From Pseudomonadota bacterium (GTDB lineage: Bacteria > Pseudomonadota > Gammaproteobacteria > Burkholderiales > Burkholderiaceae_C), in the NCBI GenBank assembly GCA_020161065.1, contig JAIUPH010000007.1:310001-374000 (forward strand): DNA of 64,000 bases, given 5' to 3'. A program made the translations under genes and the position numbers. Positions 1 to 14,666 of the stretch are shown here, piece after piece (position 1 is the stretch's first letter; the number at the start of each line of letters is the position of its first letter). The notes below the pieces were generated by a model. That model did not search any database, was not told where the DNA came from, and saw only the letters and a program-made list of their open reading frames with translations.

Positions 1-744
1 GACGTAGCGCGCGTTGTCGCTGGCCAGGAACAAGGCCATGTCGGCGACGTCGCGGACCTGCCCGTAGTCGCGCAGCGCCAGCCGCTGCTTGATCGCGCGT
101 TCGCGCTCGGCCGTCGCGGCGAGCCGCGCCATGCCTTCGGTGCCGGCGATCGGCCCCGGCGACAGCGCGTTGACGCGCACGCCCGCCGGCCCCCATTCCA
201 GCGCCAGGCAGCGCACCAGCATGTTGACGCCGGCCTTGGCCGCGTTGGCGTGCGCCTGGAACGGGCCCGGGTGCGTGGCCCCCGGCGCGGTGATCGCGAT
301 CAGCGAAGCGCCGGGCTGGCGCAGGTGCTCGAAGCTCGCGCGCAGCACGTGGAAGGTGCCGATCAGGTCGATCTCGACCACGGTGCGAAAGCCGTTGGGC
401 GACAAATGCGCCGCCGGCGCGTGGAAGTTGCCCGCGGCGCCGGAGACGACGATGTCGATCGGCCCGAAGGTCGCGGCCGTCTCGCGCACCACGGCGGCCA
501 CGGCGTCGTAGTCGCGCACGTCGGCGGCGCGCGCCAGCACCGCATCGTCCGCGGCGGGCAGCGTGCGCGCCGCCGCGGCGATGCGCTCGGCGCTGCGGCT
601 CAGGATCGCCACGCGCGCACCATGGCGCGCGAAATGCTGCGCGATGCCGAGGTTGATGCCGCCGGACGCGCCGGCGACCAGCGCGACCTTGCCGGCCAGC
701 GCGTCGGGCGCGAAGGCGTCGCGGCCGGTGAAGGTGGAGGGCAT
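1..744 (-). CDS. SDR-family oxidoreductase, 2,4-dienoyl-CoA reductase-like (3' end outside window)
   Basis: Short-chain dehydrogenase read leftward from ATG at 744; 248 codons are visible and the C-terminus lies beyond base 1. Near the N-terminus is a GASGGINLGI nucleotide-binding loop, and a SGAAGNFHAPA segment resembles the NAAGNF signature of 2,4-dienoyl-CoA reductases. Members use NAD(P)H to reduce enoyl or dienoyl-CoA in the cytosol. It diverges from the thiolase at 844 and shares a 99-bp control region with a FadR-type palindrome, so a role in beta-oxidation of an unsaturated acyl-CoA is inferred. A general SDR of another substrate is the alternative. Confidence 0.8.
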   Translation of the reverse strand, partial: MPSTFTGRDAFAPDALAGKVALVAGASGGINLGIAQHFARHGARVAILSRSAERIAAAARTLPAADDAVLARAADVRDYDAVAAVVRETAATFGPIDIVVSGAAGNFHAPAAHLSPNGFRTVVEIDLIGTFHVLRASFEHLRQPGASLIAITAPGATHPGPFQAHANAAKAGVNMLVRCLALEWGPAGVRVNALSPGPIAGTEGMARLAATAERERAIKQRLALRDYGQVRDVADMALFLASDNARYV

Positions 745-810
745 GACGGAGGACTCCTCGTTCTTGGGCCATCGATGGCGATGGCGTTGGCGTTGGCGAT
801 TGCATTATGA

Positions 811-821
811 TGGTTGAACCA
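811..821. promoter_or_regulatory. FadR-type operator TGGTTGAACCA with abutting -10
   Basis: The 11-bp palindrome TGGTTGAACCA fits the FadR core TGGTNNNACCA exactly. A TATGAT -10-like hexamer (806-811) ends on the first base of the operator, so the site would cover the start of transcription of the rightward thiolase operon. Four imperfect hexamers (GATGGC/GTTGGC, 774-797) lie just upstream. The likely ligand is the GntR protein encoded at 9075; that link is inference. Confidence 0.65.
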
Positions 822-843
822 ATGAAAATCCACGCCGACCCGC

Positions 844-2052
844 ATGACGACCGAAGCCCTGATCTTTGACGCCGTGCGCACGCCGCGCGGCCGCGGCCGC
901 GCCGACGGCAGCCTGCACGAGGTCAACCCCGTCGGCCTGCTGGCCGGGCTGATGCGTGGCCTGCAGCGCCGGCTGGACCTCGACACCGCGCAGGTCGAAG
1001 ACGCGCTGATCGGCTGCGTGCAGCCGCACGGCGAGCAGGGCGCGGTGATCGCCAAGCTGGCCGCGCTGGCCGCCGGCTGGCATTGGCGGGTGCCGGGGCT
1101 GCAGCTCAACCGCTACTGCGGCTCGGGCCTGGAGGCCGCCAACCTCGCGGCGGCCAAGGTGCGCGCGGGCTGGAGCGACCTCGTCGTCGCCGGCGGCGTG
1201 GAATCGATGTCGCGCGTGGCGATGGGCGCCGCCCCCAGCGCGCGCGACAACAGCCCGGCGCTGAACTTCCAGCTCCGCCTGGTGCCGCAGGGCGTCAGCG
1301 CCGACCTGATGGCCACGCTGGACGGCCACACGCGCGACGCTCTGGACCGCTACGCGCTGCAATCGCAGCAGCGCGCGGCCGCGGCGCGCGCCGAGGGGCG
1401 GTTCAGCCGCTCGCTGCTGCCGGTCGAGGACATCAATGGGCTGACCATTCTGGCCGAGGACGAGTTCATCCGCCCCGACACCACGCTGGAAGGGCTGGCC
1501 AGGCTGAAGCCATCGTTTGCCGCGATGGGCGAGGCCGGCTTCGACGCGCTGGCCGTCGCCGCCTACCCGCAGCTGGAGCGCATCGAGCACGGGCACACGC
1601 CGGGCAACTCGTCGGGCATCGTCGACGGCGCGGCGCTGATGCTCGTCGGCTCCGAGGCCAAAGGCCGTGCGCTGGGCCTGACGCCGCGCGCGCGCATCGT
1701 CTCGGTGGCCGCCGTCGGCAGCGAGCCGGTGATCATGCTCGACGCGCCGGCGCCGGCGGCGCGCATCGCGCTGGCCAAGGCCGGGCTGGCGCCCGAGGAC
1801 ATCGACCTCTACGAGGTCAACGAGGCCTTCGCCACCGTGGTGCTGCGCTTCATGCGCGAGCTGAAGCTGCCGCCGGAGAAGGTCAACGTCAACGGCGGCG
1901 CCATCGCGCTGGGCCACCCGCTGGGCGCCACCGGCTGCATGCTGGTGGGCACGCTGCTCGACGAGCTGGAGCGCCGCGGCCTCACGCGCGGCATGGTCGT
2001 GCTCTGCGCCGCCGACGGCATGGGCGTGGCCACCATCATCGAACGCCTGTGA
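844..2052 (+). CDS. Thiolase (acetyl-CoA C-acyltransferase family)
   Basis: 402-aa thiolase, the usual length. The nucleophile motif NRYCGSG places the active Cys at residue 92; the GHP motif gives His358 and a second Cys lies at 388 in LCAADGMG, so all catalytic residues are present. It would cleave 3-ketoacyl-CoA to acetyl-CoA plus a shortened acyl-CoA, or condense in reverse, in the cytosol. The ATG at 844 has no clear Shine-Dalgarno and lies about 25 nt after the predicted transcription start. It is followed 20 bp later by the FadJ-like fusion gene, forming a beta-oxidation pair under the operator at 811. Confidence 0.9.
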
Positions 2053-2072
2053 CGACGCGCGGAGTGCAAGCC

Positions 2073-4220
2073 ATGACCGAAGCCATCCGCTACGAGCGCG
2101 ACGAGCAGCGCATCGTCACCCTCACGATCGACATGCCGGGCCAGTCGGCCAACACCATGAACCCGGCGTTCCGCGCTGCGCTGGCCGCGACGGTCGGGCG
2201 GCTGACGGCAGAAAAGAACGACATCGCCGGCGTGATCCTCACCTCGGCCAAGAAGACCTTCTTCGCCGGCGGCGACCTCAACCACCTGCTGGCGGCCAGG
2301 CCCGAAGACGCTGCGGCGCTGTTCGAGCGCGCGCAGGGCATGAAGGCGCTGTTGCGCCGGCTGGAGACGCTGGGCCCGCCGGTGGTGGCCGCGCTCAACG
2401 GCACGGCGCTGGGCGGCGGCTTCGAGATCGCGCTGGCCTGCCATGCGCGCTTCGTGCTGGACGATGCGGCCATCGCGCTGGGCCTGCCCGAGGCCAACCT
2501 CGGCCTGCTGCCCGGCGGCGGCGGCGTGGTGCGGCTGGTGCGCCTGCTGGGCGTCGAAGCGGCGATGCCGCTGATCGTCGAAGGGCCCACGTTCGACCCG
2601 GGGCGCGCGCTGGCGCTGAAGCTGGTCGACGGCCTGGCCCCCGACCTGAACGCACTGCGGGCCCGGGCGCGCGAGTGGATCGCCGCCAACCCGCAGCCGC
2701 AGCAGCCCTGGGACCGCAAGGGCTTCCGGCTGCCGGGCTCAACCGCCAACGCGGTGGCGCCGCTGGCCTGGCTGCGCAGCGCGCCGCTGGCGCTGATGGC
2801 CAAGCACCGTGGCCTCTATCCGGCGCCGGAGGCGGCGATGTCGGCGGTGGTGGAATGCGCCGCGGTCGACTTCGACACCGCGTCGCGCATCGAGAGCCGC
2901 TACCTCGTGCAGCTGGCGACGCACCCGGTGTCGAAGAACCTGATCACGACGTTCTTCTTCCAGATGAACGAGATCAAGAACGGCAAGGGCCGGCCCGAGG
3001 GCCAGCCGCCGTCCGCCGTGCAGCGCCTGGGCGTGCTGGGCGCCGGGATGATGGGCGCCGGCATCGCGCTGGCGGCGGCGCAGCGCGGCCTGCCGGTGGT
3101 GCTGAAGGACGTGAGCGCCGAGGCCGCGCAGCAAGGCAAGGCGCGCATCGGGAAGACGCTGGCCCGGCTGGTCGAGAAAGCCCGGCTCGACGCCGAACGC
3201 ATGGCGCTCACGCTGGCGCTGATCCAGCCCACCGGCGACGCCGGCGAGCTGCAAGGCTGCGACCTGATCATCGAATCGGTGTTCGAGAAGCGCGACGTGA
3301 AGGCGCAAGCCACCGCCGAGGCCGAGGCGATGCTGGCCCCGGGCGGCTTCATCGGATCCAACACCTCCACGCTGCCGATCACAGGGCTGGCGGCGGCGGT
3401 GGCGCGGCCCGGGCACTTCATCGGCATCCACTTCTTCTCGCCGGTGGACCGCATGCCGCTGGTCGAGATCATCAAGGGCCGACAGACCTCGCCGCAAACG
3501 CTGGCGCGGGCGCTGGACTTCGTGCAGCAGTTGAAGAAGACGCCGATCGTCGTCGACGACAGCCGCGGCTTCTACACCAGCCGCGTGTTCGGCACCTTCA
3601 CCAAGGAAGGCGCGGCGATGCTGGCCGAAGGCGTGGCCGCGGCGCGCATCGAGAACGCGGCACTGGCGGTGGGCATGCCGGTGGGGCCGCTGGCGGTGAT
3701 GGACGAGACCTCGATGGCGCTGTCGTGGTCGGTGCGGCAGCAGACCATCGCCGACCTCGCGGCCGAAGGCCTGCCGCTGCCGCAGCACCCGGGCTGGGAC
3801 GTGATCCGCACGATGGCGGTCGACTTGAAGCGCCCGGGCCGCGCCGGCGGTGGCGGCTTCTACGACTACCCGGAAGACGGCCGCAAGCGGCTGTGGCCGG
3901 GGCTGGCCGACGTCTTCAGCGGCGGCGGCGGCGGCGCGCCCGACGCCGACCTGCGCGACCGGCTGCTCTACGTCCAGGCCATCGAGTCCATCCGCTGCCT
4001 GGAAGAGGGCGTGATCGAGGCGGCGCGCCACGCCAACGTCGGCTCGGTGCTGGGCATCGGTTTCCCGCGCTGGACCGGCGGCACGCTGCAATACGTCAAC
4101 AGCGTGGGTCTGAAAGCCTTCGCGCAGCGCGCGGCCGAGCTGGCGCGACGCTACGGCGAGCGCTTCGAGCCGCCGAAGCGGCTGCTGTCGATGGCCGAGC
4201 GCGGCGAGCGCTTCGTCTGA
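2073..4220 (+). CDS. Enoyl-CoA hydratase / 3-hydroxyacyl-CoA dehydrogenase fusion (FadJ/FadB-alpha type)
   Basis: 715-aa bifunctional beta-oxidation enzyme. The N-terminal crotonase part (about 1-190) carries FFAGGDL and a GGGFEIALACH oxyanion-hole region. The NAD-binding part begins near residue 320 with GAGMMGAGIA, followed by SNTSTLPIT and the HFFSPVDRMPLVEII catalytic block; the C-terminal HAD domain ends near 700. It hydrates trans-2-enoyl-CoA and oxidises the L-3-hydroxyacyl-CoA with NAD+, feeding the preceding thiolase. ATG 2073 is preceded by GGAG. Upstream in-frame codons overlap the thiolase and are not coding in this frame. Confidence 0.92.
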   Translation: MTEAIRYERDEQRIVTLTIDMPGQSANTMNPAFRAALAATVGRLTAEKNDIAGVILTSAKKTFFAGGDLNHLLAARPEDAAALFERAQGMKALLRRLETLGPPVVAALNGTALGGGFEIALACHARFVLDDAAIALGLPEANLGLLPGGGGVVRLVRLLGVEAAMPLIVEGPTFDPGRALALKLVDGLAPDLNALRARAREWIAANPQPQQPWDRKGFRLPGSTANAVAPLAWLRSAPLALMAKHRGLYPAPEAAMSAVVECAAVDFDTASRIESRYLVQLATHPVSKNLITTFFFQMNEIKNGKGRPEGQPPSAVQRLGVLGAGMMGAGIALAAAQRGLPVVLKDVSAEAAQQGKARIGKTLARLVEKARLDAERMALTLALIQPTGDAGELQGCDLIIESVFEKRDVKAQATAEAEAMLAPGGFIGSNTSTLPITGLAAAVARPGHFIGIHFFSPVDRMPLVEIIKGRQTSPQTLARALDFVQQLKKTPIVVDDSRGFYTSRVFGTFTKEGAAMLAEGVAAARIENAALAVGMPVGPLAVMDETSMALSWSVRQQTIADLAAEGLPLPQHPGWDVIRTMAVDLKRPGRAGGGGFYDYPEDGRKRLWPGLADVFSGGGGGAPDADLRDRLLYVQAIESIRCLEEGVIEAARHANVGSVLGIGFPRWTGGTLQYVNSVGLKAFAQRAAELARRYGERFEPPKRLLSMAERGERFV

Positions 4221-4241
4221 AGCGGCGCTCTGGTGACGAGC

Positions 4242-5168
4242 ATGAGCGCCGGCGCTAACGCTACGAACGAGCTCATCGGCTGGATCGGCCTGGGCGCGAT
4301 CGGCGCGCCGATGGCGCAGCGCGTGGCGCAGGCTGGCTGGCCGCTGCAGGTGTGGAACCGCGACCGCGCGAAGGCGGAGGCGCTGGCTATGCAAGGGGCG
4401 AGCGTCGCCACGACGCCGGCCGCGCTGGCGCGCGAGGCCGGCATCGTCTGCCTGTGCGTGACCGACGCGGCCGCGGTGGAGCAGGTGGTGTTCGGCCCCG
4501 AGGGCGCGGCCGCCGGCCTGGCGCCGGGCGGCATCGTCATCGACCACTCGACCATCGCGCCCGACGCGACGCGCGCCTTCGCCGCCCGGCTGCTGGCCGA
4601 GCGCGGCGGCCACTGGATCGACGCGCCGGTCTCCGGCGGCCCGGCCGGCGCGCGCGAAGGCCGGCTGACGGTGTTTGCCGGCGGCGACGCGGCGGCGCTG
4701 GCGCGCGTGCAGCCGCTGCTGCAGGCCTATGCCGCGCGCATCACCCATCTCGGCGCGGCCGGCAGCGGGCAGATCGGCAAGGCCTGCAACCAGCTCGTCA
4801 GCTTCGGCACCGCCGCGGTGCTGGCCGAGGCCTTGCACCTCGCGCAGCGCCAGGGCCTGGACGCCGCCGCGCTGGTGCAGGCGATGCAGGCCGGCTTCGC
4901 CGACTCCGCGGTGTTGCGCCACTACGCCGGCGCCATGCTGGCCGGCGTCTACAGCGGATCGACGCTGAATGCGCTGAAGGACACCGAGATCGCCTTGGCG
5001 CTGGGCCGCGAGGCCACGGCGCCGCTGCCGATGGCCGAGCTACTGGCCACGCTGTACCGGCAGTTGGTGGCGCAAGGGCACACGCGGCTGGGGATGGCGG
5101 GGGTGATGCGGCTGTACGTCGAGGGGCCGCTGGCCGACGTGCCGGCGCTCGACCGCCAGCTGCCGTAG
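4242..5168 (+). CDS. Beta-hydroxyacid dehydrogenase, 3-hydroxyisobutyrate dehydrogenase-like
   Basis: 308-aa NAD(P)-dependent dehydrogenase. It has an N-terminal GLGAIGAPMA Rossmann loop, the substrate motif DAPVSGGPAGAREG, and a GQIGKACNQL helix whose Lys is the family's catalytic residue. Members oxidise 3-hydroxyisobutyrate, tartronate semialdehyde or related acids; the real substrate cannot be read here. The start is ATG 4242; a GTG at 4233 is also in frame. It follows the FadJ-like gene by about 20 bp and is probably the last gene of the operon. A weak GC hairpin (about 5172-5190) lies between it and the next promoter. Confidence 0.82.
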   Translation: MSAGANATNELIGWIGLGAIGAPMAQRVAQAGWPLQVWNRDRAKAEALAMQGASVATTPAALAREAGIVCLCVTDAAAVEQVVFGPEGAAAGLAPGGIVIDHSTIAPDATRAFAARLLAERGGHWIDAPVSGGPAGAREGRLTVFAGGDAAALARVQPLLQAYAARITHLGAAGSGQIGKACNQLVSFGTAAVLAEALHLAQRQGLDAAALVQAMQAGFADSAVLRHYAGAMLAGVYSGSTLNALKDTEIALALGREATAPLPMAELLATLYRQLVAQGHTRLGMAGVMRLYVEGPLADVPALDRQLP

Positions 5169-5239
5169 CAACCCGCCTCCGCACGCGGGTGAGGGAGCCT
5201 GCCACGACCTGCGGCGGCGACGGCCGATTGCGTGCAAAA

Positions 5240-5250
5240 TGGACGGACCA
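5240..5250. promoter_or_regulatory. FadR-type operator TGGACGGACCA upstream of aromatic genes
   Basis: TGGACGGACCA matches TGGTNNNACCA with one mismatch. A CAAAAT -10-like hexamer (5235-5240) ends on its first base, the same geometry as at 811 and 10869. It lies 74 bp upstream of the flavin hydroxylase ATG at 5325 and suggests that this operon is co-controlled with the beta-oxidation genes. Confidence 0.55.
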
Positions 5251-5324
5251 TTTACACGAAGCCGCTGATCGAGGGTCCCGACCCATCGCAGCGTGCTCGG
5301 CCGCAACCTCGTCCGCTGAACGCC

Positions 5325-6995
5325 ATGCAAACCACCCCTGTTTTGATCGTCGGCGCCGGCCCCGTCGGCCTGGCGCTGGCCGGCGACCTGGGCTGGCGCG
5401 GCGTGGACTGCGTGCTGGTCGAACGCGGCGACGGCGTGATCGGCCAGCCGCGCATGGACATGGTCGGCATCCGCTCGATGGAGTTCTGCCGCCGCTGGGG
5501 CATCGTGCCCTGGGTCGAATCGGCCGGCTACAACCGCGACTACCCGCAGGACTGCGCCTGGGTCACCGACCTCAACGGCTACGAGTTCGGGCGCGAGGTT
5601 TTCCCGTCGCCGGCGGCCGAGAAGTGCCCACCCGTCAGCCCACAGAAGCGCGAGCGTTGCCCGCAGAACTTCTTCGACCCCGTGCTGGCGCGCTTCGTGC
5701 GCAGCACCGGCCGCGTGGACCTGCGTTACCGCACCGAGCTGGCGTCGTTCGAGGACCGCGGCGACCACGTGCTGGCGACGCTGAAAGACGCCGCCAGCGG
5801 CGAGCGCCGCACGCTGCAGGCGCAGTACCTCGTGGGCTGCGACGGCGGCGCCAGCGGCGTGCGTCAAGCCTTGGGCATCGGCATGAGCGGCGAGCCGGTG
5901 CTGTCCTACACCACCAACGTCGTCTTCCGCTGCGACGGGCTGGAGAAGCTGCACGACAAGGCGCCGGCCTACCGCTACATCTTCATCGGCCCCGAAGGCA
6001 CCTGGGCGACGCTGGTGGCGATCAACGGCCGCGACCAGTGGCGCTTCTCGCTCGTTGGAGACGCCACGCGGCGCGAGGTGAGCGAGGCGCAGATGCGCCG
6101 CGCCATCGTGCGCGCGATGGGGCGCGAGTTCGACTTCGAGATCCTCTCGGTGCTCCCCTGGGTGCGCCGCCAGCTCGTGGCCGACCGCTACGGCCAGGGC
6201 CGCGTCTTCATCGCCGGCGACGCCGCGCACCTGACCTCGCCGACCGGCGGCTTCGGGATGAACACCGGCATTCTCGATGCGGTGAACCTGAGCTGGAAGC
6301 TGGCCGCGAAGGTGCAGGGCTGGGGCGGCGACCACCTGCTCGACAGCTACGGGTTCGAGCAGCAGCCGGTGGCCGTGCGCAACGTCACCGAGGCCGGCGA
6401 GAACCTGCGCCGCATGCTGTCGCCGCGCGTGCTGAAGCCCGACCCCGCGGTGTTCGACCGGGACCACCCCGACATCGAGGCCGCGCGCCGCGAGTACGGC
6501 GCGCGCTACACCGAGATGATGAAGCGCGAGTGGTTCTCGGTCGGCATCCACCTGGGCTACGTCTACGAAGGCTCGCCCATCGTCGCGCCCGACGGCACGC
6601 CGCCGCCGCCGAATGAGGTCGCGCGTTACACGCCGACGGCGCGGCCGGGCTCGCGCGCGCCCCACGTGTGGCTGGCGGAAGGGCGGTCGACGCTGGACCT
6701 GTTCGGCCGCGGCTTCGTGCTGCTGCGCCTGGGCGCCGCGCCGCCGGCGGCCGATTCGATCGAGCGCGCCGCCGCGGCCGCCGGCCTGCCGCTGCAGACC
6801 GTCGACATCCGCCACGACGAGGCCGAGCGGCTTTACCAGCGCCGCCTGGTGCTGGTGCGCCCCGACGGCACGGTGGCCTGGCGCGCCGACGAGGCGTCGG
6901 CCGATGCCGCGGCGCTTGTCGACCTCGTCCGCGGCGCGGGCGTGCCGGCGCCGCCGGCCGCCATCCGTCCGGCTTACCAGTTAGCGGAGGTGTGA
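5325..6995 (+). CDS. FAD-dependent aromatic hydroxylase (phenol hydroxylase/MhpA class)
   Basis: 556-aa group A flavoprotein monooxygenase. GAGPVGLALAG near the N-terminus binds FAD; CDGGASGVRQ is the DG motif, and GDAAHLTSPTGGFGMNTGI is the second FAD/ribityl motif. The last ~100 residues look like the thioredoxin-fold tail of phenol hydroxylase and MhpA-type enzymes. NAD(P)H-dependent ring hydroxylation is expected. Because it is translationally joined (TGATG at 6993-6997) to a gentisate dioxygenase homologue, hydroxylation of a mono-hydroxybenzoate or close analogue to gentisate is the best inference. ATG 5325 was preferred to upstream in-frame codons, which would overlap the promoter. Confidence 0.85.
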   Translation: MQTTPVLIVGAGPVGLALAGDLGWRGVDCVLVERGDGVIGQPRMDMVGIRSMEFCRRWGIVPWVESAGYNRDYPQDCAWVTDLNGYEFGREVFPSPAAEKCPPVSPQKRERCPQNFFDPVLARFVRSTGRVDLRYRTELASFEDRGDHVLATLKDAASGERRTLQAQYLVGCDGGASGVRQALGIGMSGEPVLSYTTNVVFRCDGLEKLHDKAPAYRYIFIGPEGTWATLVAINGRDQWRFSLVGDATRREVSEAQMRRAIVRAMGREFDFEILSVLPWVRRQLVADRYGQGRVFIAGDAAHLTSPTGGFGMNTGILDAVNLSWKLAAKVQGWGGDHLLDSYGFEQQPVAVRNVTEAGENLRRMLSPRVLKPDPAVFDRDHPDIEAARREYGARYTEMMKREWFSVGIHLGYVYEGSPIVAPDGTPPPPNEVARYTPTARPGSRAPHVWLAEGRSTLDLFGRGFVLLRLGAAPPAADSIERAAAAAGLPLQTVDIRHDEAERLYQRRLVLVRPDGTVAWRADEASADAAALVDLVRGAGVPAPPAAIRPAYQLAEV

Positions 6996-8029
6996 TGGAC
7001 ATCGTCACCAACGACGGCGACGCCCGGCGCGCACTGCAGGCCGAGCTGGCGCGCTTCCACTGCCGCGTGCACCAGAGCGACGACCCGCCGCTGTTCACGC
7101 GCGAGCCGCGGCCGACCATGCGCTCGGTGCACTGGCGCTGGCGCGACCTGGCGCCGCTGCTCGACCGGCTGGGCCGCGAGGTCGACCTCGGCGCCGGCGG
7201 CCCGCGGCGCACGCTGCGGCTGCAGAACCCGGGGCTGGCCGAGGGCACGACGCACACCTTCTGGTGCTCGATCCAGGTCATCCTGCCCGGCGAGGTGGCC
7301 ACCTGCCACCGCCACAGCGCCAGTGCCCTGCGCTTCATCATGAAGGGCAACGGCGCCTGGACCACGGTCGACGGCGAACACTACGCCATGAACGAGGGCG
7401 ACCTCGTGCTGACCCCCGCCGGCAGCTGGCACGACCACGTGCACCGCGGCAGCGAGCCCATGGTGTGGCTGGACGTGCTGGACATCTCGCTGATGCGGCT
7501 GCTGCAGGCCACGTTCTTCGAGCCTTATGCGCACGACGTGCAGCCGGTGGACCGCGTGCCCGACCGCAGCTGGCGCCAGCACGGCAGCGGCCTGATGGCG
7601 CCGCCGCGCGCCGCCCCCGGGCCTTACGCCAACCCCTTGTTGGCCTACCCGCAGGCGAGTGCCCAGGCCGCGCTGGACGCCGCCGCCGGCCTGCCGCCCG
7701 ACCCGCACGACGACGTGGTGCTGGCCTACCGCAACCCCGCCACCGGCGGCCCGCCGATGACGACGATGGGCCAGCAGCTGCAGCGCATCCGCGCCGGCTT
7801 CCAGGGCCGGCGGCGGCGCCACACCGGCAGCAAGGTGTACTACGTGCTGCGCGGCCGCGGCGTCAGCACCGTCGGCGACGAGCGCTACGACTGGGAGGCC
7901 GGCGACTTCTTCGCCGTCGCCCCCTGGGCCTGGCACGCGCACCAGGGCCTGGAAGACGCGCTGCTGTTCCAGGTCAACGACCAGCCCGCGCTGCAGGCGC
8001 TGGGCTACTACCGCGAAGAGCTCGAATGA
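6995..8029 (+). CDS. Gentisate 1,2-dioxygenase-like bicupin
   Basis: 344-aa two-cupin protein of gentisate dioxygenase length. The first cupin has His105 and His107 in CHRHSASALRF, the family's Fe(II) site, with a later SWHDHVH. A second cupin (about 250-335) has a weaker metal motif, as in the family. It would open the gentisate ring to maleylpyruvate in the cytosol. Its ATG overlaps the TGA of the hydroxylase by 1 nt and its own TGA overlaps the next ATG, so the three genes are translationally coupled. 1-hydroxy-2-naphthoate or salicylate ring cleavage is possible, as those enzymes share this fold. Confidence 0.87.
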   Translation: MDIVTNDGDARRALQAELARFHCRVHQSDDPPLFTREPRPTMRSVHWRWRDLAPLLDRLGREVDLGAGGPRRTLRLQNPGLAEGTTHTFWCSIQVILPGEVATCHRHSASALRFIMKGNGAWTTVDGEHYAMNEGDLVLTPAGSWHDHVHRGSEPMVWLDVLDISLMRLLQATFFEPYAHDVQPVDRVPDRSWRQHGSGLMAPPRAAPGPYANPLLAYPQASAQAALDAAAGLPPDPHDDVVLAYRNPATGGPPMTTMGQQLQRIRAGFQGRRRRHTGSKVYYVLRGRGVSTVGDERYDWEAGDFFAVAPWAWHAHQGLEDALLFQVNDQPALQALGYYREELE

Positions 8030-8913
8030 AGATCGCCAGCTTCGATGACCACCGGGTCGGCCTCGTCGAGGGCGAGCGGCTCTACGACGTCACCGCCGCG
8101 CTGCCGGCCGCGCTGGACGCGCTGCCGCCGCAGCGCATCAACTGGCTGGTCGCGCACTGGGCCGAGGCGCGGCCGGCCATCGAGCGCGTGCGTGCGCAGG
8201 CCACGGGCCGCGCGCTCGACGTCGTGCGCTGGCTGGCCGCCAACCCGGCGCCGCCGCACGTCTTCGCGGCGCCGGCCAACTACCGCAAGCACATCGGCGA
8301 GCTGGGCTCGCGCGTCGTCACCAAGAAGGGCCGCACCGCGCGCGAGCAGGGCTTCTTCCTGAAGGCGCCGGGCTCGGTGGTCGGGCACGGCGGCACCATC
8401 GAACTGCCGCGCGGTTCGACGCGGCGCTTCGACCACGAATCGGAGCTGGCGGTGATCATCGGCCAGGGCGGGCGCGACATCCCACGCGAGCGGGCGTGGT
8501 CCCACGTATTCGGTTATGCCTGCCTGATCGACGCCACCATGCGCATCGAGGCCGAGCAGTTCGAGGAAGAGCGCAGCATGCGCAAGTCCTTTGCCGGCTT
8601 CACGCCGCTGGGGCCGTGGATCGTGACGGCCGACGAAGTCGGCGACCCGCAGGCGCTGGACAACCGGCTGTGGGTCAACGGCGAGTTGCGGCAGCAGGCC
8701 AACACCGGCGAGATGATCGTCGGCGTGGCCGAGCTGATCGAGCTGGTCTCCTCGGTGCTGCCGCTGCAGCCCGGCGACGTGATCGCCAGCGGCACGCCCG
8801 AAGGCGTGGGACCTTTCGCGCCGGGCGACACGCTGCGCATCGCAATCGAGCGGGTCGGCGAGATGACGGTGCAGGTGCGCGAGCGCGAGGGGGTGTCGCC
8901 GCGGGCGTATTGA
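8026..8913 (+). CDS. Fumarylacetoacetate hydrolase-family protein (probable maleyl/fumarylpyruvate hydrolase)
   Basis: 295-aa FAH-family enzyme. It contains FDHESELAVIIG, with the acidic metal ligands, GYACLIDATMRI, and the C-terminal GTPEGVGP loop. Members hydrolyse C-C bonds of acylpyruvates with Mg2+ or Mn2+. Directly downstream of a gentisate dioxygenase, it should split maleylpyruvate or fumarylpyruvate to pyruvate plus maleate or fumarate. No maleylpyruvate isomerase is linked; the GST at 41.0 kb looks like an ordinary beta-class GST. The start ATG overlaps the upstream stop (ATGA). No strong terminator follows. Confidence 0.87.
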   Translation: MKIASFDDHRVGLVEGERLYDVTAALPAALDALPPQRINWLVAHWAEARPAIERVRAQATGRALDVVRWLAANPAPPHVFAAPANYRKHIGELGSRVVTKKGRTAREQGFFLKAPGSVVGHGGTIELPRGSTRRFDHESELAVIIGQGGRDIPRERAWSHVFGYACLIDATMRIEAEQFEEERSMRKSFAGFTPLGPWIVTADEVGDPQALDNRLWVNGELRQQANTGEMIVGVAELIELVSSVLPLQPGDVIASGTPEGVGPFAPGDTLRIAIERVGEMTVQVREREGVSPRAY

Positions 8914-9042
8914 GGCGCGGTTCGGTCAGCGGCAGCGGCATGTCACTGGTTGCATGCCACCGATGGTGCCGCGCGCCTGCCGCGACACGTCGTCAGCCGT
9001 ACGCCGTCAACGACTCGCTGATGGCCACGGCAACACCCTGCC

Positions 9043-9070
9043 GATAATGCAGCCCTCCAAGAGGGAAGGA
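9043..9070 (+). promoter_or_regulatory. Promoter -10 and leader hairpin of the GntR gene
   Basis: GATAAT (9043-9048) is a good -10 candidate. CCCTC-CAA-GAGGG (9053-9065) forms a perfect 5-bp hairpin ending against the AAGGA ribosome-binding site (9066-9070) of the gene starting at 9075. No perfect TGGTNNNACCA site is present here. Confidence 0.4.
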
Positions 9071-9074
9071 CTGC

Positions 9075-9845
9075 ATGAAGGACGCCGCGCGCGCCGCCGC
9101 CGAACCCAATGCCGCCGGCACCCGCGCGCCGCGCGTGTTCGAGACCATCTGTGACCAGGTGCGCGAGCAGCTGGCCAGCGGCGCGCTGAAGCCTGGCGAC
9201 AAGCTACCGGCCGAGCGCGAGTTGGCGCTGCAGTGCGGCAGCTCGCGCACCGCCGTGCGCGAGGCGTTGCGCAGCCTGGAGATCGCCGGCGTCATCCGCC
9301 TGCACAAGGGCGTGAAGGGCGGCGCCTTCATCCGCGAGGGCGACCCCGCGGTGGTGACGCGCTCGTTCGGCGACATGGTGCACCTGGGCCGCATCTCGCT
9401 GGCCGACCTGACCGAGAGCCGCGTGATCCTGCTCGACGCCGTGCTGCGCCTGGCCGCCGAGCGCGCGCGCGAGCAGGAGCTCGACGCGCTGGAGCACAGC
9501 ATCAGCCGCACCGAGGAACTGACGCGCCTGAACCGGCTGGACGAGCGGCGCGAGCAGCTCGTCAACTTCTACCGCCTGCTGGCGCAGGCCACGCACAATG
9601 AGGTGCTGGTGATCCTGGTCGACGCCGTCACCGACATCGTGCTGAAGGTGCTGCAGCGCGACGGCGTGGCCCCGCGCGCCGAGACCGTGAAGGTGCACCG
9701 CGAAATCGTCCACTGCCTGCGCCGGCGCGACGCCGAGAAGGCCGTGCTGCTGCTGCGCCGGCACTTCAAGGCGCTGCATGCCTATCTGTTCGAGGCCTCG
9801 GCGGCGCAGAGCGGGTCCGCGCCGGCCCGCGCGCGAAGCCGTTGA
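9075..9845 (+). CDS. GntR-family transcriptional regulator, FadR subfamily (FCD domain)
   Basis: 256-aa regulator. Residues about 20-90 form the GntR winged helix-turn-helix, with GDKLPAERELALQCG and SRTAVREALRSLEIAG as recognition elements. The remainder is an all-helical FCD ligand domain. FadR-subfamily proteins bind TGGTNNNACCA-like palindromes as dimers and are released by acyl-CoA or organic acid ligands. It sits centrally in the catabolic island, and matching palindromes occur at 811, 5240 and 10869-10907, so it is the inferred repressor of all three operons. ATG 9075 has GGAAGGA just upstream. It ends 9 bp from the convergent Bug gene. Confidence 0.9.
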   Translation: MKDAARAAAEPNAAGTRAPRVFETICDQVREQLASGALKPGDKLPAERELALQCGSSRTAVREALRSLEIAGVIRLHKGVKGGAFIREGDPAVVTRSFGDMVHLGRISLADLTESRVILLDAVLRLAAERAREQELDALEHSISRTEELTRLNRLDERREQLVNFYRLLAQATHNEVLVILVDAVTDIVLKVLQRDGVAPRAETVKVHREIVHCLRRRDAEKAVLLLRRHFKALHAYLFEASAAQSGSAPARARSR

Positions 9846-9854
9846 AGAGCGAAG

Positions 9855-10832
9855 TTATTCGGCCTTGATGCCGAACTGCTTGAACACGCCGCGCCAGTAG
9901 CCGGTCTCGGCTTCGACGAAGGCGGCGAAGGCACGCGATTCGACGGCGTCCACCACGTAGCCGGCGGCGTCGGTCTTCTCGGCCACCTCGGCGCTGGTGG
10001 CCACCTGCAGCCAGGCGGCCGAGAGGCGGTCGACCACCGCGCGCGGCGTGCCCGCCGGCGCGAACACGCCGCCCCAGCCCGAGCGCCGCAGGTCGGCGAG
10101 CCCCAGCTCGGCGAAGGTCGGCACCTGTGCGATGCGCGCCAGCCGCTTGGCGCTGGCCACCGCCAGCACCTGCAGCCGGCCGGCCTGCGCCGCTGCGGTG
10201 CCGGGCGCGATGAAGGTGGCATTGACCTGGCCGCCGAGCAGGTCGGTCAGCGCCGGCGCCTCGCCCTTGTACGGCACCGAGACCAGCTCGACCCCGGCCG
10301 CCTGCTCGAAGATCTTGCCCAGCGCCTGTGCCGTGGTCGAGATGACGCCGCAGGACATGGCGCCCTTCGCCGCCTTGGCACGCTCGATGAAACTCGGCAA
10401 GGTGGTGACGCCCAGGCTGGTGTTGACCGCCAGCGCGAGCGGAATGTCGTGCAGCTTGGCAACCGCCGCCAGCTCGCCCGGCTCGTAAGGCATCTTGGCG
10501 TAGAGGCTGGGGTTCTGCGCCACGGCGCTGGTGCCGAACAGCAGCGTGTAGCCGTCGGCCGGCGACTTCGCCACCTGGGCGGCGGCCAGCATCGTCGCCG
10601 CGCCGGGCTTGTTCTCGATGACGACCGGCTGCTTCCAGGCCGCGGCCAGCTTCTCGCCGAAGAAGCGCGCCAGGCCGTCGAACGAGCCGCCCGCCGGCGT
10701 CGGCACGACCAGCCTCACCGGCCGCGTGGGGAAGGCCGCGGCCGGCGGCTCCGCCGCGCGCGCCGCCGGCACCGCGAGGGGGGCCAGCGGCGCCAGCAGC
10801 AGCGAGGTTCCGAAGCGTCTGCGCGTCGTCAT
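9855..10832 (-). CDS. Bug-family (TctC-like) periplasmic solute-binding protein
   Basis: 325-aa tripartite-tricarboxylate-transporter type receptor. The N-terminus MTTRRRFGTSLLLAPL has twin arginines and ends in AARAAE, so Tat or Sec export to the periplasm is predicted. Mature sequence features PVRLVVPTPAGGSFDGLAR and ENKPGAATM, typical of Bug proteins that bind carboxylates. No TctA/TctB membrane subunits are in the window. It diverges from the thiolase-like operon and shares its three-operator region, so it may capture the substrate or an acidic intermediate of this pathway. Confidence 0.88.
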   Translation of the reverse strand: MTTRRRFGTSLLLAPLAPLAVPAARAAEPPAAAFPTRPVRLVVPTPAGGSFDGLARFFGEKLAAAWKQPVVIENKPGAATMLAAAQVAKSPADGYTLLFGTSAVAQNPSLYAKMPYEPGELAAVAKLHDIPLALAVNTSLGVTTLPSFIERAKAAKGAMSCGVISTTAQALGKIFEQAAGVELVSVPYKGEAPALTDLLGGQVNATFIAPGTAAAQAGRLQVLAVASAKRLARIAQVPTFAELGLADLRRSGWGGVFAPAGTPRAVVDRLSAAWLQVATSAEVAEKTDAAGYVVDAVESRAFAAFVEAETGYWRGVFKQFGIKAE

Positions 10833-10868
10833 CTGGAGGTCTCCGGTCTTTTGGGTCTTGAGGTAGAA

Positions 10869-10907
10869 TGGTTGGACCACAATGGTTGGGCCAGTATGGC
10901 GAGACCA
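10869..10907. promoter_or_regulatory. Three FadR-type operators in tandem, 14-bp period
   Basis: TGGTTGGACCA (10869-10879, perfect match to TGGTNNNACCA), TGGTTGGGCCA (10883-10893, one mismatch) and TGGCGAGACCA (10897-10907, one mismatch) start exactly 14 bp apart. TAGAAT (10864-10869) is a -10-like hexamer ending on the first operator. The array lies between the divergent Bug gene (start 10832) and the thiolase-like gene (start 10954), so it can control both. Confidence 0.68.
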
Positions 10908-10953: not shown

Positions 10954-12117
10954 ATGCCCTCCGCCGTCATCGCAGGCGTCTACGAACACCCCTTGCGCAA
11001 GGCGCCCGACCGTTCCACCGCGCTGCTGCACGCCGAATGCGCCCGCGGCGCGCTGGCCGATGCCGGGCTGTCCCTGGCCGACGTGGACGGCTACTTCTGC
11101 GCCGGCGATGCCCCCGGCTTCGGCGCGCTGGCGATGGCCGAGTACCTGGGGCTGCGCCTGCAGCACGTCGATTCCACCGAGCTGGGCGGCGCCAGCTATG
11201 TCTCGCACGTGGCGCGCGCCGCCGCCGCGGTCGACGCCGGGCGCTGCAACGTGGCGCTGGTCACGCTGGCCGGCCGGCCGCGATCGGAAGGCCGCTCCGT
11301 CGGCACCTCGGCGCGCAGCGCGCCGATGCAGGTGCCCGACACCGCCTTCGAGATCCCCTACCGCCCGAACGTCACGCTGCTCTACGCCATGTGCGCTAAG
11401 CGCCACATGCACGAGTACGGCACCACCAGCGAGCAGCTCGCGTGGATCCGCGTCGCCGCGTCGCAGCACGCGCAGCACAACCCACACGCGCTGCTGCGCG
11501 AGCCGGTGACCGTGCAGGACGTGCTCGACTCGCCGCTGGTGGCCGACCCGCTGCACCGGCTGGACTGCTGCGTGGTCACCGACGGCGGCGGCGCCATCGT
11601 CGTCACGCGGCGCGAGATCGCGCGCGAGCTGCGCGCGCAAAGCGTCGCCATCCGCGGCGCCGGCGACGCCATCTATCACCTGCAGGGCGGCGCGGCCGAC
11701 CTCACCCGCACCGGCGCGGCGCTGTCGGGCCGCACGGCCTTCGCGCAGGCCGGCGTGCGGCCCGCCGACATCCAGTACGCGTCGATCTACGACAGCTTCA
11801 CGATCACCGTGCTGCTGCAGCTCGAAGACCTGGGCTTCTGCGCCAAGGGCGAGGGCGGGCGCTTCGTCGCCGACGGCAACCTGATCGCCGGCGTCGGCAG
11901 GCTGCCGTTCAACACCGACGGCGGCGGCCAGTGCAACAACCACCCCGCCAACCGCGGCGGCATGACCAAGGTGATCGAAGCCGTGCGCCAGCTGCGCGGC
12001 CGCGCCCACCCCGCCGTGCAGGTGCCCGATTGCCGCCTCGCGCTGGCGCAGGGCCTCGGCGGCTGGATCGGCACCCGCCACGCCAGCAGCACCCTGATCC
12101 TGGAGCGCATCGGATGA
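10954..12117 (+). CDS. Thiolase-like lipid-transfer/aldolase-family protein (SCP-x/Ltp2 type)
   Basis: 387-aa thiolase-fold protein. Unlike the thiolase at 844, the N-terminal nucleophile position reads TELGGASYVSHV with no Cys, and the C-terminal Cys is replaced around LALAQGLGG; a His remains in QCNNHPANRGG. This pattern is known for SCP-x-like and Ltp2-like proteins, some of which are retro-aldolases working with a DUF35 partner. The next gene is a DUF35 protein overlapping by 4 nt, which supports a two-subunit complex cleaving a 3-hydroxyacyl-CoA. ATG 10954 is chosen; upstream in-frame codons would cover the operators. No clear ribosome-binding site. Confidence 0.82.
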   Translation: MPSAVIAGVYEHPLRKAPDRSTALLHAECARGALADAGLSLADVDGYFCAGDAPGFGALAMAEYLGLRLQHVDSTELGGASYVSHVARAAAAVDAGRCNVALVTLAGRPRSEGRSVGTSARSAPMQVPDTAFEIPYRPNVTLLYAMCAKRHMHEYGTTSEQLAWIRVAASQHAQHNPHALLREPVTVQDVLDSPLVADPLHRLDCCVVTDGGGAIVVTRREIARELRAQSVAIRGAGDAIYHLQGGAADLTRTGAALSGRTAFAQAGVRPADIQYASIYDSFTITVLLQLEDLGFCAKGEGGRFVADGNLIAGVGRLPFNTDGGGQCNNHPANRGGMTKVIEAVRQLRGRAHPAVQVPDCRLALAQGLGGWIGTRHASSTLILERIG

Positions 12118-12527
12118 CCGTCAACACCCCCTCGCCGCAGCAGCCCCTCGACGAGCTGCTGGCCGCCGCACCGGAAACCGCTGCCTACTGGCAGGCCGCC
12201 GCCGAAGGCCGGCTGCTGCTGCGCCGTTGCGAAGCCTGCGGCCGCAGCCACCACTATCCGCGGCCGATCTGCCCGCATTGCGGCAGCGACCGCACCGCCT
12301 GGCGCGCGGCCAGCGGGCAGGGCACGATCCACACCTTCAGCGTGATGCGCCGCATCGACGAGCCCTATGCCATCGGCTACGTCGACCTCGCCGAAGGCTG
12401 CCGCATGCTGACGCAGTTCGTCGACGCCGAACCCGACGCGCTGCGCATCGGCGCGCCGGTGCAGGTGGCCTTCCGCGATCTCGGCCAGGGCTACCCGGTG
12501 CCGGTGTTCCACCCGGCGGCGGCTTGA
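12114..12527 (+). CDS. DUF35 OB-fold protein with N-terminal zinc ribbon
   Basis: 137-aa Zn-ribbon/OB-fold protein. CEACG and CPHCG provide four zinc ligands around residues 39-58; the rest is an acyl-CoA-binding-type OB fold (GTIHTFSVM, AIGYVDLAEG). DUF35 proteins are partners of thiolase-like proteins, for example the ChsH2 C-terminal domain with Ltp2. Its ATGA overlap with the upstream stop implies stoichiometric translation with the thiolase-like subunit. It has no independent catalytic motif. Confidence 0.88.
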   Translation: MTVNTPSPQQPLDELLAAAPETAAYWQAAAEGRLLLRRCEACGRSHHYPRPICPHCGSDRTAWRAASGQGTIHTFSVMRRIDEPYAIGYVDLAEGCRMLTQFVDAEPDALRIGAPVQVAFRDLGQGYPVPVFHPAAA

Positions 12528-12530
12528 GCG

Positions 12531-14666
12531 ATGCGGTCTTCAGACGTGCTGAATCCGGCGAGCGTCGCGATCGTCGGCGCTTCGTCCGACCCCGAGCGCA
12601 TCGGCGGCATCCCGATCGCCACCATGCTGCAGCAGGGCTTCGCCGGCGAGCTGTGGCCGGTGAACCCGGCGCGCAGCGACGTGCAAGGCCTGCGCTGCTA
12701 CGACGCCATCGAGAACCTGCCGGCCGCGCCCGACGCCGCCATCGTCGCCGTGCCGGGCGCCCTGGCGGCCGACGCCGTGGAGGCGCTGGCCCGCCGGGGC
12801 ACGCGCTCGGCCATCGTCTTCTCGGCCGGCTTCGCCGAGGCCGGGGCGGCGGGCGCCGAACTGCAGCAGCGCATGGTGCGCGCGGCCCAGGCCAGCGGCC
12901 TGCGCCTGTTCGGCCCCAACACCATCGGCCTGTTCAACGCCCACGCGGCCTACTACCCGTTCTTCTCCACCGCGTTCGAGCGCGGTTTTCCGCTGCCGGG
13001 GCGCATCGGCATCGCCAGCCAGTCGGGCGCCGTCGGCTCGCAGATCTTCAACATCGCGCGCAACCGCGGCATGGGCACGCCGCTGTGCATCACCACCGGC
13101 AACGAGGCCGACGTGACGCTGGGCGAGGCGATCGGCTGGCTGGTCGACCACCCCGGCATCGACGTCATCGTCGCCTACCTCGAAGGCCTGCGCCGGCCGG
13201 AACTGCTGCTGCAGGCGCTGGAAGCGGCGCGCCGCGCGCGCAAGCCGGTCATCGTGCACAAGGGCGGGCGCAGCGCGCTCGGCGCCAGCGCCGTGCAGTC
13301 GCACACCGCGGCCATCGCCGGCGATGACCGGCTGTTCGACGTCGTGCTCGACGAGTTCGGCGCCGTGCGCGCCGAGCACACCGAGCAGATGCTCGACATC
13401 GCCTACGCCGCCGCGCGGCGCATCTACCCGGTGGCCGGCACGCTGGGCGTGCTGACGCTCAGCGGCGGCGCCGGCATCCAGATGAGCGACGCCGCCGAGC
13501 GCGCCGGCCTGGCGATGCCGCAGATGGACGGCGGCAGCCAGCAGCGGCTGCAGGCGCTGCTGCCGTTCGCATCGCCGGTGAACCCGATCGACATCACGGC
13601 CCAGTCGCTCAACGACATCGACCTCGTCGGCCACTTCGCGCGCGAGGTCGCCGAACGTGGTGGTTATGAGGCGATCGCGGTCTACCTGGCCGGCGTCGGC
13701 GGCTCGCTGAAGAAGGGCCCGGTGCTGCGCCGGAGCTTCGCCGACGTGGCGCGCGCGCACCCGGACCGGTTGTGGACCATCCTGACGACCGCCGACCGCG
13801 AGGCGGTGGCCGCGTACGAGCAGGACGGGCTGCTGGTGTTCGAGGAGCCGGCGCGCGCGATCCACGCGATCGGCGCGCTGGCGCGCTTCGGCCGGGCCTT
13901 TGCGCGGCCGGAGGCGCCGGCGTTGTCGCAAGCAATGTCGCCAGCGACGACCGGCGCACCCCTGCCGGCCACGGTGCCGAACGAGGCCGAGGCCAAGGCC
14001 TGGCTCGCGTCGCACGGCGTGGCCTGCCTGCCCGAGGCGCTGGCCACCGACGCGCAGGCGGCCGCGGCAGCCGCGCAGGGCATGGGCTTTCCGGTGGTGC
14101 TGAAGATCGTTTCGCCCGACATCGCGCACAAGTCCGAGGTCGGCGGCGTGCAGCTCGACCTGCGCAGCGCCGGCGAAGTGCGCTCGGCCTTCGCGGCCGT
14201 GACGGCAGCGGTCGCGCGCGCCAGGCCCGATGCGCGCATCGACGGCGTGCTCGTCGCGCCGCAGATCGCCGACGGCGTCGAATGCCTGGTCAGCGTGCAC
14301 CGCGACCCGCAGCTCGGCCTGTTCGCCGCCTTCGGCCTGGGCGGCATCTTCGTCGAGCTGCTGCAGGACGTAGTGTTCCGCCGCTGCCCCTTCGACGAGG
14401 CGGCCGCGCACGCGATGATCGCCGGCATCCGCGGCGCGCCGCTGCTGCGCGGCGCGCGCGGCCGGCCGCCGGCCGACGTGGACGCGCTGGCGCGGCTGCT
14501 GTCGCGGCTGTCGGTGCTGGCGCACCGGCATGGCGAGCGGCTGCGCTCGATCGAGCTCAACCCGGTGCTCGTGCGGCCCGCGGGCCTGGGCGCGTGGGCG
14601 GCCGACGCCGTGATCGAGCTGGCGGCGGCGGGCAGCGGAGAGACGCGCCCCTGCGAGAACCGCTGA
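12531..14666 (+). CDS. ADP-forming acyl-CoA synthetase (acetyl-CoA synthetase family, CoA-binding + ATP-grasp)
   Basis: 711-aa single-chain NDP-forming acyl-CoA ligase. Order: CoA-binding Rossmann domain (about 1-130; SVAIVGASSDPERIGG), succinyl-CoA-synthetase-like ligase domains with a SHTAAIAG loop whose His258 is the expected phosphohistidine, and a C-terminal ATP-grasp domain from about 480 (VLKIVSPDIAHKSEVGGV). It would activate a carboxylic acid to its CoA thioester using ATP, giving ADP and phosphate. No GNAT domain is fused, so it is not a Pat-type acetyltransferase. It sits 3 bp after the DUF35 gene and probably performs the first activation step. Confidence 0.88.
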   Translation: MRSSDVLNPASVAIVGASSDPERIGGIPIATMLQQGFAGELWPVNPARSDVQGLRCYDAIENLPAAPDAAIVAVPGALAADAVEALARRGTRSAIVFSAGFAEAGAAGAELQQRMVRAAQASGLRLFGPNTIGLFNAHAAYYPFFSTAFERGFPLPGRIGIASQSGAVGSQIFNIARNRGMGTPLCITTGNEADVTLGEAIGWLVDHPGIDVIVAYLEGLRRPELLLQALEAARRARKPVIVHKGGRSALGASAVQSHTAAIAGDDRLFDVVLDEFGAVRAEHTEQMLDIAYAAARRIYPVAGTLGVLTLSGGAGIQMSDAAERAGLAMPQMDGGSQQRLQALLPFASPVNPIDITAQSLNDIDLVGHFAREVAERGGYEAIAVYLAGVGGSLKKGPVLRRSFADVARAHPDRLWTILTTADREAVAAYEQDGLLVFEEPARAIHAIGALARFGRAFARPEAPALSQAMSPATTGAPLPATVPNEAEAKAWLASHGVACLPEALATDAQAAAAAAQGMGFPVVLKIVSPDIAHKSEVGGVQLDLRSAGEVRSAFAAVTAAVARARPDARIDGVLVAPQIADGVECLVSVHRDPQLGLFAAFGLGGIFVELLQDVVFRRCPFDEAAAHAMIAGIRGAPLLRGARGRPPADVDALARLLSRLSVLAHRHGERLRSIELNPVLVRPAGLGAWAADAVIELAAAGSGETRPCENR

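Follow-up and report, generated by a model that had tools for sequence, protein, structure and literature searches.

Paralogous FCD regulators probably divide a beta-oxidation and ring-cleavage island in a Burkholderiaceae_C genome

Escherichia coli FadR recognizes TGGT-N3-ACCA boxes, and the gentisate pathway employs gentisate 1,2-dioxygenase and fumarylpyruvate hydrolase. The locus described here, a stretch of 64,000 nucleotides (the window, starting at G000:C33:310001) in the 6.29-Mb genome of a Burkholderiaceae_C bacterium (GCA_020161065.1), carries a regulator, operator-like palindromes and a ring-cleavage operon that recall both systems. Five palindromes related to TGGTNNNACCA stand at the heads of a beta-oxidation operon, a ring-cleavage operon and two divergent units that begin with a TctC-type solute-binding protein and a thiolase-like protein (ltp), and a GntR/FCD regulator gene (here A, confirmed at 9075-9845) lies among them. 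A sequence-only reading had joined all of these into one FadR-like regulon. We consider it probable that two paralogous regulators of the FadR subfamily divide the island, A controlling ring cleavage and the TctC/thiolase-like units, and a second protein, B (or a third, C), controlling beta-oxidation.

The FadR subfamily of the GntR family (PdhR, LldR, GlcC, ExuR) is described in PMC4494728 as recognizing TKGT/ACMA boxes with GT and AC mostly three bases apart, and its TKGT-N3-ACMA palindromes occur as local single or double sites at the regulator's own cluster. The window follows this arrangement, the palindrome being conserved at A's own cluster here and at three orthologue loci, and A likewise joins a GntR helix-turn-helix (HTH) to an FCD domain, both above curated cut-offs, which places it in the subfamily. 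Its effector and target operons may differ, and an NCBIfam scan of A gave no named orthologue group above cut-off. The three-base spacing and a Thr at HTH position 39 (Thr-46 in Table 1 of PMC4494728) are shared with E. coli FadR, whereas the models for FadR proper were far from reached (NF003444, 29.0 bits, cut-off 189; TIGR02812, 26.7 bits, cut-off 249.2) and A has no C-terminal Pfam match other than PF07729 (FCD); the label "FadR-like" thus fits at the level of the subfamily and not of FadR itself. Motif and regulator kind are both known (PMC4494728). Regulation here is most likely a further case of a familiar type of gene control in bacteria, and this weakens, for regulation, the proposal that the system is undescribed.

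Among the enzymes, the flavin hydroxylase, bicupin dioxygenase and fumarylacetoacetate (FAA) hydrolase stand in one operon as in the gentisate pathway, whereas the clusters of A orthologues add an acyl-coenzyme A (CoA) dehydrogenase, a PrpF-type isomerase and a fumarate-reductase/KstD-like flavoprotein. The dioxygenase stays well under the cut-off of the gentisate 1,2-dioxygenase equivalog (Table 1), and the earlier naming of the operon after gentisate is not established for it; the monooxygenase passes the PRK06126/RebC-like subfamily cut-off. The thiolase-fold protein stands beside a zinc-ribbon/OB (DUF35) partner, as in the Ltp2/ChsH2 and Sal/Shy steroid side-chain aldolases (PMC12329534, PMC11321319), and the two carry the domains of a putative Ltp/ChsH2-type aldolase pair (PF22691; PF12172 and PF01796).

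Operators and the conserved promoter-like boxes of the ring operon

The palindromes reported earlier at 811, 5240 and 10869-10907 are all present, those at 811 and 10869 matching TGGTNNNACCA exactly and those at 5240, 10883 and 10897 with one mismatch each, and all five are intergenic in gene predictions based on codon usage, for which genes of the window served as training set and no annotation was used. The 587 intergenic bases between positions 745 and 10953 thereby contain five sites with at most one mismatch, two of them exact. Over 5,000 dinucleotide shuffles the corresponding averages are 0.18 and 0.008, and no shuffle reached the observed counts; only one such site (at most one mismatch) occurs in the remaining 4,573 intergenic bases of the window. 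These palindromes are more than chance. At 10869, 10883 and 10897 the sites follow one another in tandem every 14 bp, a distance at which neighbouring dimers would not share a face of the helix; at the orthologue loci, operators come in pairs 86-87 bp apart (L038 432/519, L039 600/686) or 485 bp apart (L040 1065/1550).

Three close orthologues of A were present among the loci found, in L038 (= G026:C60), L039 (Schlegelella koreensis) and L040 (a Rhodoferax metagenome-assembled genome), the proteins being 64-77% identical among these and the window. All three loci keep the monooxygenase (80-89% identity), the dioxygenase (73-80%) and the FAA hydrolase (78-83%), and in each the A operon is headed by an acyl-CoA dehydrogenase. 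Within the 12-21 kb examined there, the window's thiolase, FadJ, ltp/OB and acyl-CoA synthetase (ACS) genes were not found; L038 has a 49% relative of the dehydrogenase at 4242. The orthologue promoters share the layout TTGAC...AATGGANNGACCAT-TA[AG]AG, i.e., a -35-like box, the operator and a -10-like box, and the operator at 5240 is identical to theirs while its flanking -35 and -10 boxes are weaker. The A at its fourth base, which we scored as a mismatch, is common to all four species and is therefore a conserved feature.

Genome-wide, exact TGGTNNNACCA occurs 35 times, 14 copies being intergenic and 21 within predicted genes, and we rejected the bare 11-mer as the definition of a regulon on account of these numbers. 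The question of whether such sites are equally common at unrelated genes has a mixed answer: the bare motif is common elsewhere, and promoter copies tend to adjoin FCD genes. An FCD gene lies within 12 kb of seven of the 14 intergenic copies and of one of the 21 intragenic ones (P = 0.003), a strength that depends on the cut, which was picked after the distances had been seen (cuts of 7, 13 and 30 kb give P = 0.010, 0.053 and 0.031). It is extremely improbable that the palindromes arose by accident from a G+C-rich base composition; the 35 copies, with their intragenic share, would agree with it, yet it is opposed by the shuffles, by the cross-species footprint at 5240 and by the proximity of intergenic copies to FCD genes (with the dependence on distance just given). 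The genome has 27 FCD matches, and many of the proteins behind them could use a TGGTNNNACCA-like site; a bare match is no basis for attributing a gene to any one of them.

A stricter A pattern, ATGGNNNGACCAT, occurs at seven places in the genome, three of them in the window (one within thl), and the pattern ATGGTNNGACCAT with one mismatch gives 25 rows at 20 places. Contexts were examined for seven stricter-pattern places outside the window: three are intragenic, three lie in gaps of 26, 45 and 747 bases, and the seventh, at C26:8251, is an intergenic TGGTCCAACCA (L107) that starts 34 bp before an acyl-CoA dehydrogenase gene whose product shares 55% identity with the acyl-CoA dehydrogenase encoded at the head of the L039 A operon. 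Its contig is without any FCD match. We do not claim it as an A target, its matrix score being only +1.1; it could serve A, or some other FCD protein, as a distant target.

Central bases and the neighbouring regulator B

The window palindromes differ in the bases beside their centre, 811 belonging to a T/A class and the sites at 5240, 10869, 10883 and 10897 to a G/C class. At loci with regulator A only (L039, L040), all 11 intergenic sites have a G or C flanking the centre; at loci with regulator B or C only (L029, L030, L033, L036, L041), two of 16 do, the other 14 having T or A (Fisher P = 6e-6, a guide only, as the rule was seen before the test on largely the same sites and the sites share descent). 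These groups exclude L026 and L027 (a contig with both A and B), L024, L025, L028, L097, L099 and the loci of group D (below), and they include L039 19732, L039 19788 and L029 2941; when at least three A/T flank bases are required, the G/C centre is found in nine of nine and one of 14 sites. Four intergenic one-mismatch sites around B in L024 (3359, 4500, 13610, 16922), to the left of the window and outside the test, fall without exception in the T/A class. Matrices built without the window sites, with L026 and L027 contributing to that of A and rows with few A/T flanks dropped (L026 4871, L039 19732 and 19788 for A; L029 2941 for B), assigned 12 of 15 A sites and 13 of 15 B/C sites correctly in leave-out classification. 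By these measures the operon-head sites do not all share the centre of A's sites, 811 being T/A and 10869 ambiguous by matrix (Table 1). Reversed, 811 agrees in 18 of 19 bases with C33:278832, 32 kb away, and with L030 10462, both of which head a relative (70-71% identity) of the window's thiolase-like gene.

Immediately beyond the left edge of the window, which cuts it off, and about 1 kb from site 811, a second FCD regulator is encoded (B; G000:C33:309056-309793). It has the Pfam GntR and FCD domains and is 43% identical to A. On its far side are an AMP-binding acyl-CoA ligase, two acyl-CoA dehydrogenases and an enoyl-CoA hydratase (ECH), and on its near side the window's short-chain dehydrogenase/reductase (SDR), thiolase and FadJ, so that B looks to be flanked by a complete beta-oxidation set. 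A counterpart of the site L024 13610, which precedes the AMP-ligase, is found at L030 18198, where a relative of B is close by. The third FCD paralogue, C, is encoded at C33:290643. The region G000:C33:275001-311500 (L025, L024) forms a catabolic island with FCD regulators at C33:290643 and 309056, several TctC genes and a second thiolase-like/OB/ECH set, as well as a Rieske oxygenase and a ferredoxin-domain protein with sites C33:295359 and 296500 beside them.

By our own count, with Arg-28 and Gly-59 as anchors, HTH position 39 holds Thr in A, Ser in B, Asn in both C and D, and Pro in L042. According to PMC4494728, the residue at this position is correlated with the pair of bases that flank the centre, an Asn favouring A/T, and Thr-46 of E. 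coli FadR, which occupies it, contacts C and G. Two Paraburkholderia regulators with Asn-39 lie among seven one-mismatch sites (five T/A, none G/C, two other), and a Variovorax regulator with Thr-39 faces three AAGGT-type two-mismatch sites (two G/C, one T/A); both cases appear to lean the same way as the split between residue 39 and centre. A fourth FCD group, D, has sites of a third central class, TGGTNNTACCA (L034 563, L035 3118, L037 3142). These observations suggest that a genome with 27 FCD matches may separate regulators of near-identical 11-bp operators via the bases beside the centre, and the pairs A/5240 and B/811 provide material on which HTH residue reads those bases.

One regulator or two

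Taking binding, repression, effector and the attribution of 811 to B from sequence, we postulate that A most likely acts as a local repressor. As a dimer it would sit on AATGG[T/A]NNGACCATT in the ring operon promoter (5240), where the position of the operator between the -35- and -10-like boxes suggests that it would block RNA polymerase, and it would also control the divergent TctC and ltp/OB/ACS/ECH units through the triplet at 10869-10907; the signal that releases A would be an acidic metabolite formed in the ring pathway. B, or a close paralogue sharing its TGGTTNAACCA preference, would control the beta-oxidation set on both of its sides, i.e., the AMP-ligase, two acyl-CoA dehydrogenases and ECH to the left, and the SDR and thiolase/FadJ/dehydrogenase genes via 811 to the right. 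The earlier idea of one regulator at the operon heads is in this way retained for the ring operon and the TctC/thiolase-like units and given up for the beta-oxidation operon.

A single regulon, in which all five sites would be bound by the 9075 product with little regard to their central bases and the 15 kb would make up a single route for an aromatic acid bearing an aliphatic side chain, is unlikely. All five sites do share TGGTNNNACCA within one mismatch and head three operons, A is central in the island and sites of the FadR subfamily vary, but central bases and matrix score set 811 apart, paralogue B is its near neighbour, and the A orthologue loci, in the DNA examined, are without these beta-oxidation genes. 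Overlapping control, with A and B (or C) cross-binding 811 and 10869 at different affinity and the operon sets co-ordinated by competition, seems possible but doubtful: the equal scores of 10869 on both matrices and the similar HTH of paralogues of this identity would allow for it, while 5240, 10897 and 811 are well separated by score.

Several observations count against a division between A and B, and our rating of it as no more than probable takes into account the failure in G026 at the footprint site and the exceptions within the window genome. All three misclassified A sites come from G026, including L026 18510 (-0.17), the G026 copy of the 5240 site, and all seven intergenic L026-L027 sites are of the G/C class even though this contig carries both A and B (before B it has just a two-mismatch TTGAAC-type site; in L028, the rest of the contig, two of three sites are T/A). 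Within the window itself 10869 is neutral by matrix, and elsewhere in its genome two G/C-class sites are found near other regulators, L025 9463 near C and L063 8541 at 6.9 kb from an Asn-39 regulator. Thr at position 39 trends, non-significantly, to A/T and not to G/C in the data of PMC4494728. B and C share a site preference, and 811 could accordingly belong to C. Finally, 811 seems hardly footprinted at the thiolase gene: relatives of the thiolase were matched in 28 of 61 genomes (best identity outside the window genome 65%), and among 19 thiolase loci in other genomes the palindrome (one mismatch) is directly upstream only in L078, with an AAA centre (T/A class), the other one-mismatch matches lying away from the thiolase start.

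As to L025 9463 (C33:284463), it is an intergenic AGGTACGACCA before an enoyl-CoA-hydratase-like gene, scores +4.0 on the A matrix and stands 35 kb from A, within the island of paralogue C; it could be one more target of A, or else a case that departs from the centre rule.

The ring-cleavage module and surrounding features

The recurring unit is the ring module alone, which the comparison of A orthologues brings to attention. In L039, where the proteins were scanned, the A cluster contains the PrpF-type isomerase and the fumarate-reductase/KstD-like flavoprotein; L038 and L040 have frames resembling the former and L038 a frame for part of the latter. The PrpF/oxalomesaconate-tautomerase-like gene, identified by scan in L039 and by likeness in the other two, directly follows the FAA hydrolase (L039 8711-9844, L040 7759-8892, L038 7835-8968), is missing in the window, and encodes an enzyme that perhaps acts on the ring-cleavage product. 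In the window genome the flavoprotein of L039 has no match at 1e-60, and the best match to PrpF (57%) is far from the window at C4:328646, with an FCD match 2 kb off.

We tentatively put forward, as one possibility, that A marks an undescribed ring-degradation pathway fed in the window strain by two other activation modules. The set would comprise the acyl-CoA dehydrogenase, fumarate-reductase/KstD-like flavoprotein, a CoA-transferase, the RebC-like hydroxylase, gentisate-like dioxygenase, FAA hydrolase and PrpF-type isomerase, with a PrpB-type lyase added in Sagittula and Variovorax. It might convert a CoA-activated alicyclic or aromatic acid, perhaps one with an alkyl branch, to a hydroxylated ring, whose cleavage would give pyruvate and a branched C4-C5 acid. 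At this place the window strain would retain only the hydroxylase, dioxygenase and hydrolase, and A would have captured the ltp/OB/ACS/ECH module via the operator triplet. The set appears undescribed from its gene content together with literature searches, which returned no paper on methylgentisate/citramalate, 3-hydroxyphenylpropionate/gentisate or PrpF/gentisate/fumarylacetoacetate hydrolase. On the side of regulation, searches gave no paper joining GntR, gentisate, FCD and regulator; judged by title, no match to the string TGGTNNNACCA concerned such an operon and the only match to GntR/gentisate/tripartite tricarboxylate was off-topic.

Table 1. Features of the window between positions 1 and 15505 (log2 A/B, ratio of matrix scores)
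Feature	Position	Strand	Evidence
SDR oxidoreductase	1..744	-	NCBIfam PRK07576 343.6 bits, cut-off 321; runs on leftwards past window edge; divergent from thiolase
Operator TGGTTGAACCA, B/C type	811..821	.	Exact match; between SDR and thiolase; log2 A/B -6.57; 18/19 with C33:278832
Acetyl-CoA C-acyltransferase (thiolase, thl)	844..2052	+	PRK08242 613 bits, cut-off 514
FadJ/FadB-like hydratase/3-hydroxyacyl-CoA dehydrogenase	2073..4220	+	3HCDH_N, ECH_1, 3HCDH; FadJ/FadB cut-offs not reached
3-hydroxyisobutyrate-dehydrogenase-type reductase	4242..5168	+	PF03446, PF14833; under every NCBIfam cut-off
Operator TGGACGGACCA, A type, ring operon head	5240..5250	.	One mismatch; footprint common to L038 3002, L039 3895, L040 2885; log2 A/B +10.3
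FAD monooxygenase, PRK06126/RebC-like	5325..6995	+	PRK06126 671.8 bits, cut-off 445; RebC 2r0c
Bicupin ring-cleavage dioxygenase, gentisate 1,2-dioxygenase relative	6995..8029	+	TIGR02272 276.2 bits, cut-off 442.1 not reached; 3bu7/2d40
FAA hydrolase family protein	8026..8913	+	PF01557 188 bits
GntR/FCD regulator A	9075..9845	+	PF00392 60.5 bits (cut-off 27), PF07729 61.3 bits (cut-off 24.3)
TctC-type solute-binding protein	9855..10832	-	PF03401 168.7 bits
Operator 1 of triplet, TGGTTGGACCA	10869..10879	.	Exact; A type by centre, matrix ambiguous (log2 A/B -0.02)
Operator 2 of triplet, TGGTTGGGCCA	10883..10893	.	One mismatch; log2 A/B +2.1
Operator 3 of triplet, TGGCGAGACCA, A type	10897..10907	.	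One mismatch; log2 A/B +6.5
Thiolase-fold lipid-transfer-type protein (PRK08142; ltp)	10954..12117	+	678 bits, cut-off 462; PF22691
ChsH2-type zinc-ribbon/OB protein	12114..12527	+	PF01796, PF12172
ACS, presumably ADP-forming from its domain layout	12531..14666	+	PF13549, PF13607, PF13380
Putative ECH	14711..15505	+	Reading frame, likeness by eye only

Searches for the monooxygenase in 369 genomes of the class (at most three candidates scored per genome) and for the dioxygenase in 300 genomes of the order (at most seven) recovered the window genome only, which at this depth says little. On plasmids, 64 records matched the monooxygenase, and the three of these examined for it hold relatives with similar partners, in Paraburkholderia (73% identity), Sagittula stellata (57%) and Variovorax (52%). 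The Sagittula and Variovorax sets include PrpF and PrpB genes by annotation, and the Variovorax cupin is just 28% identical. In Sagittula stellata the plasmid (NZ_CP155730.1, 96688-126160; L098) is typed as conjugative and carries a similar enzyme set, i.e., the monooxygenase, a cupin protein, FAA hydrolase, PrpF, a PrpB-type lyase, a FAD-binding protein, CoA-transferases and acyl-CoA dehydrogenases, together with a LysR-type regulator gene and a TRAP carrier.

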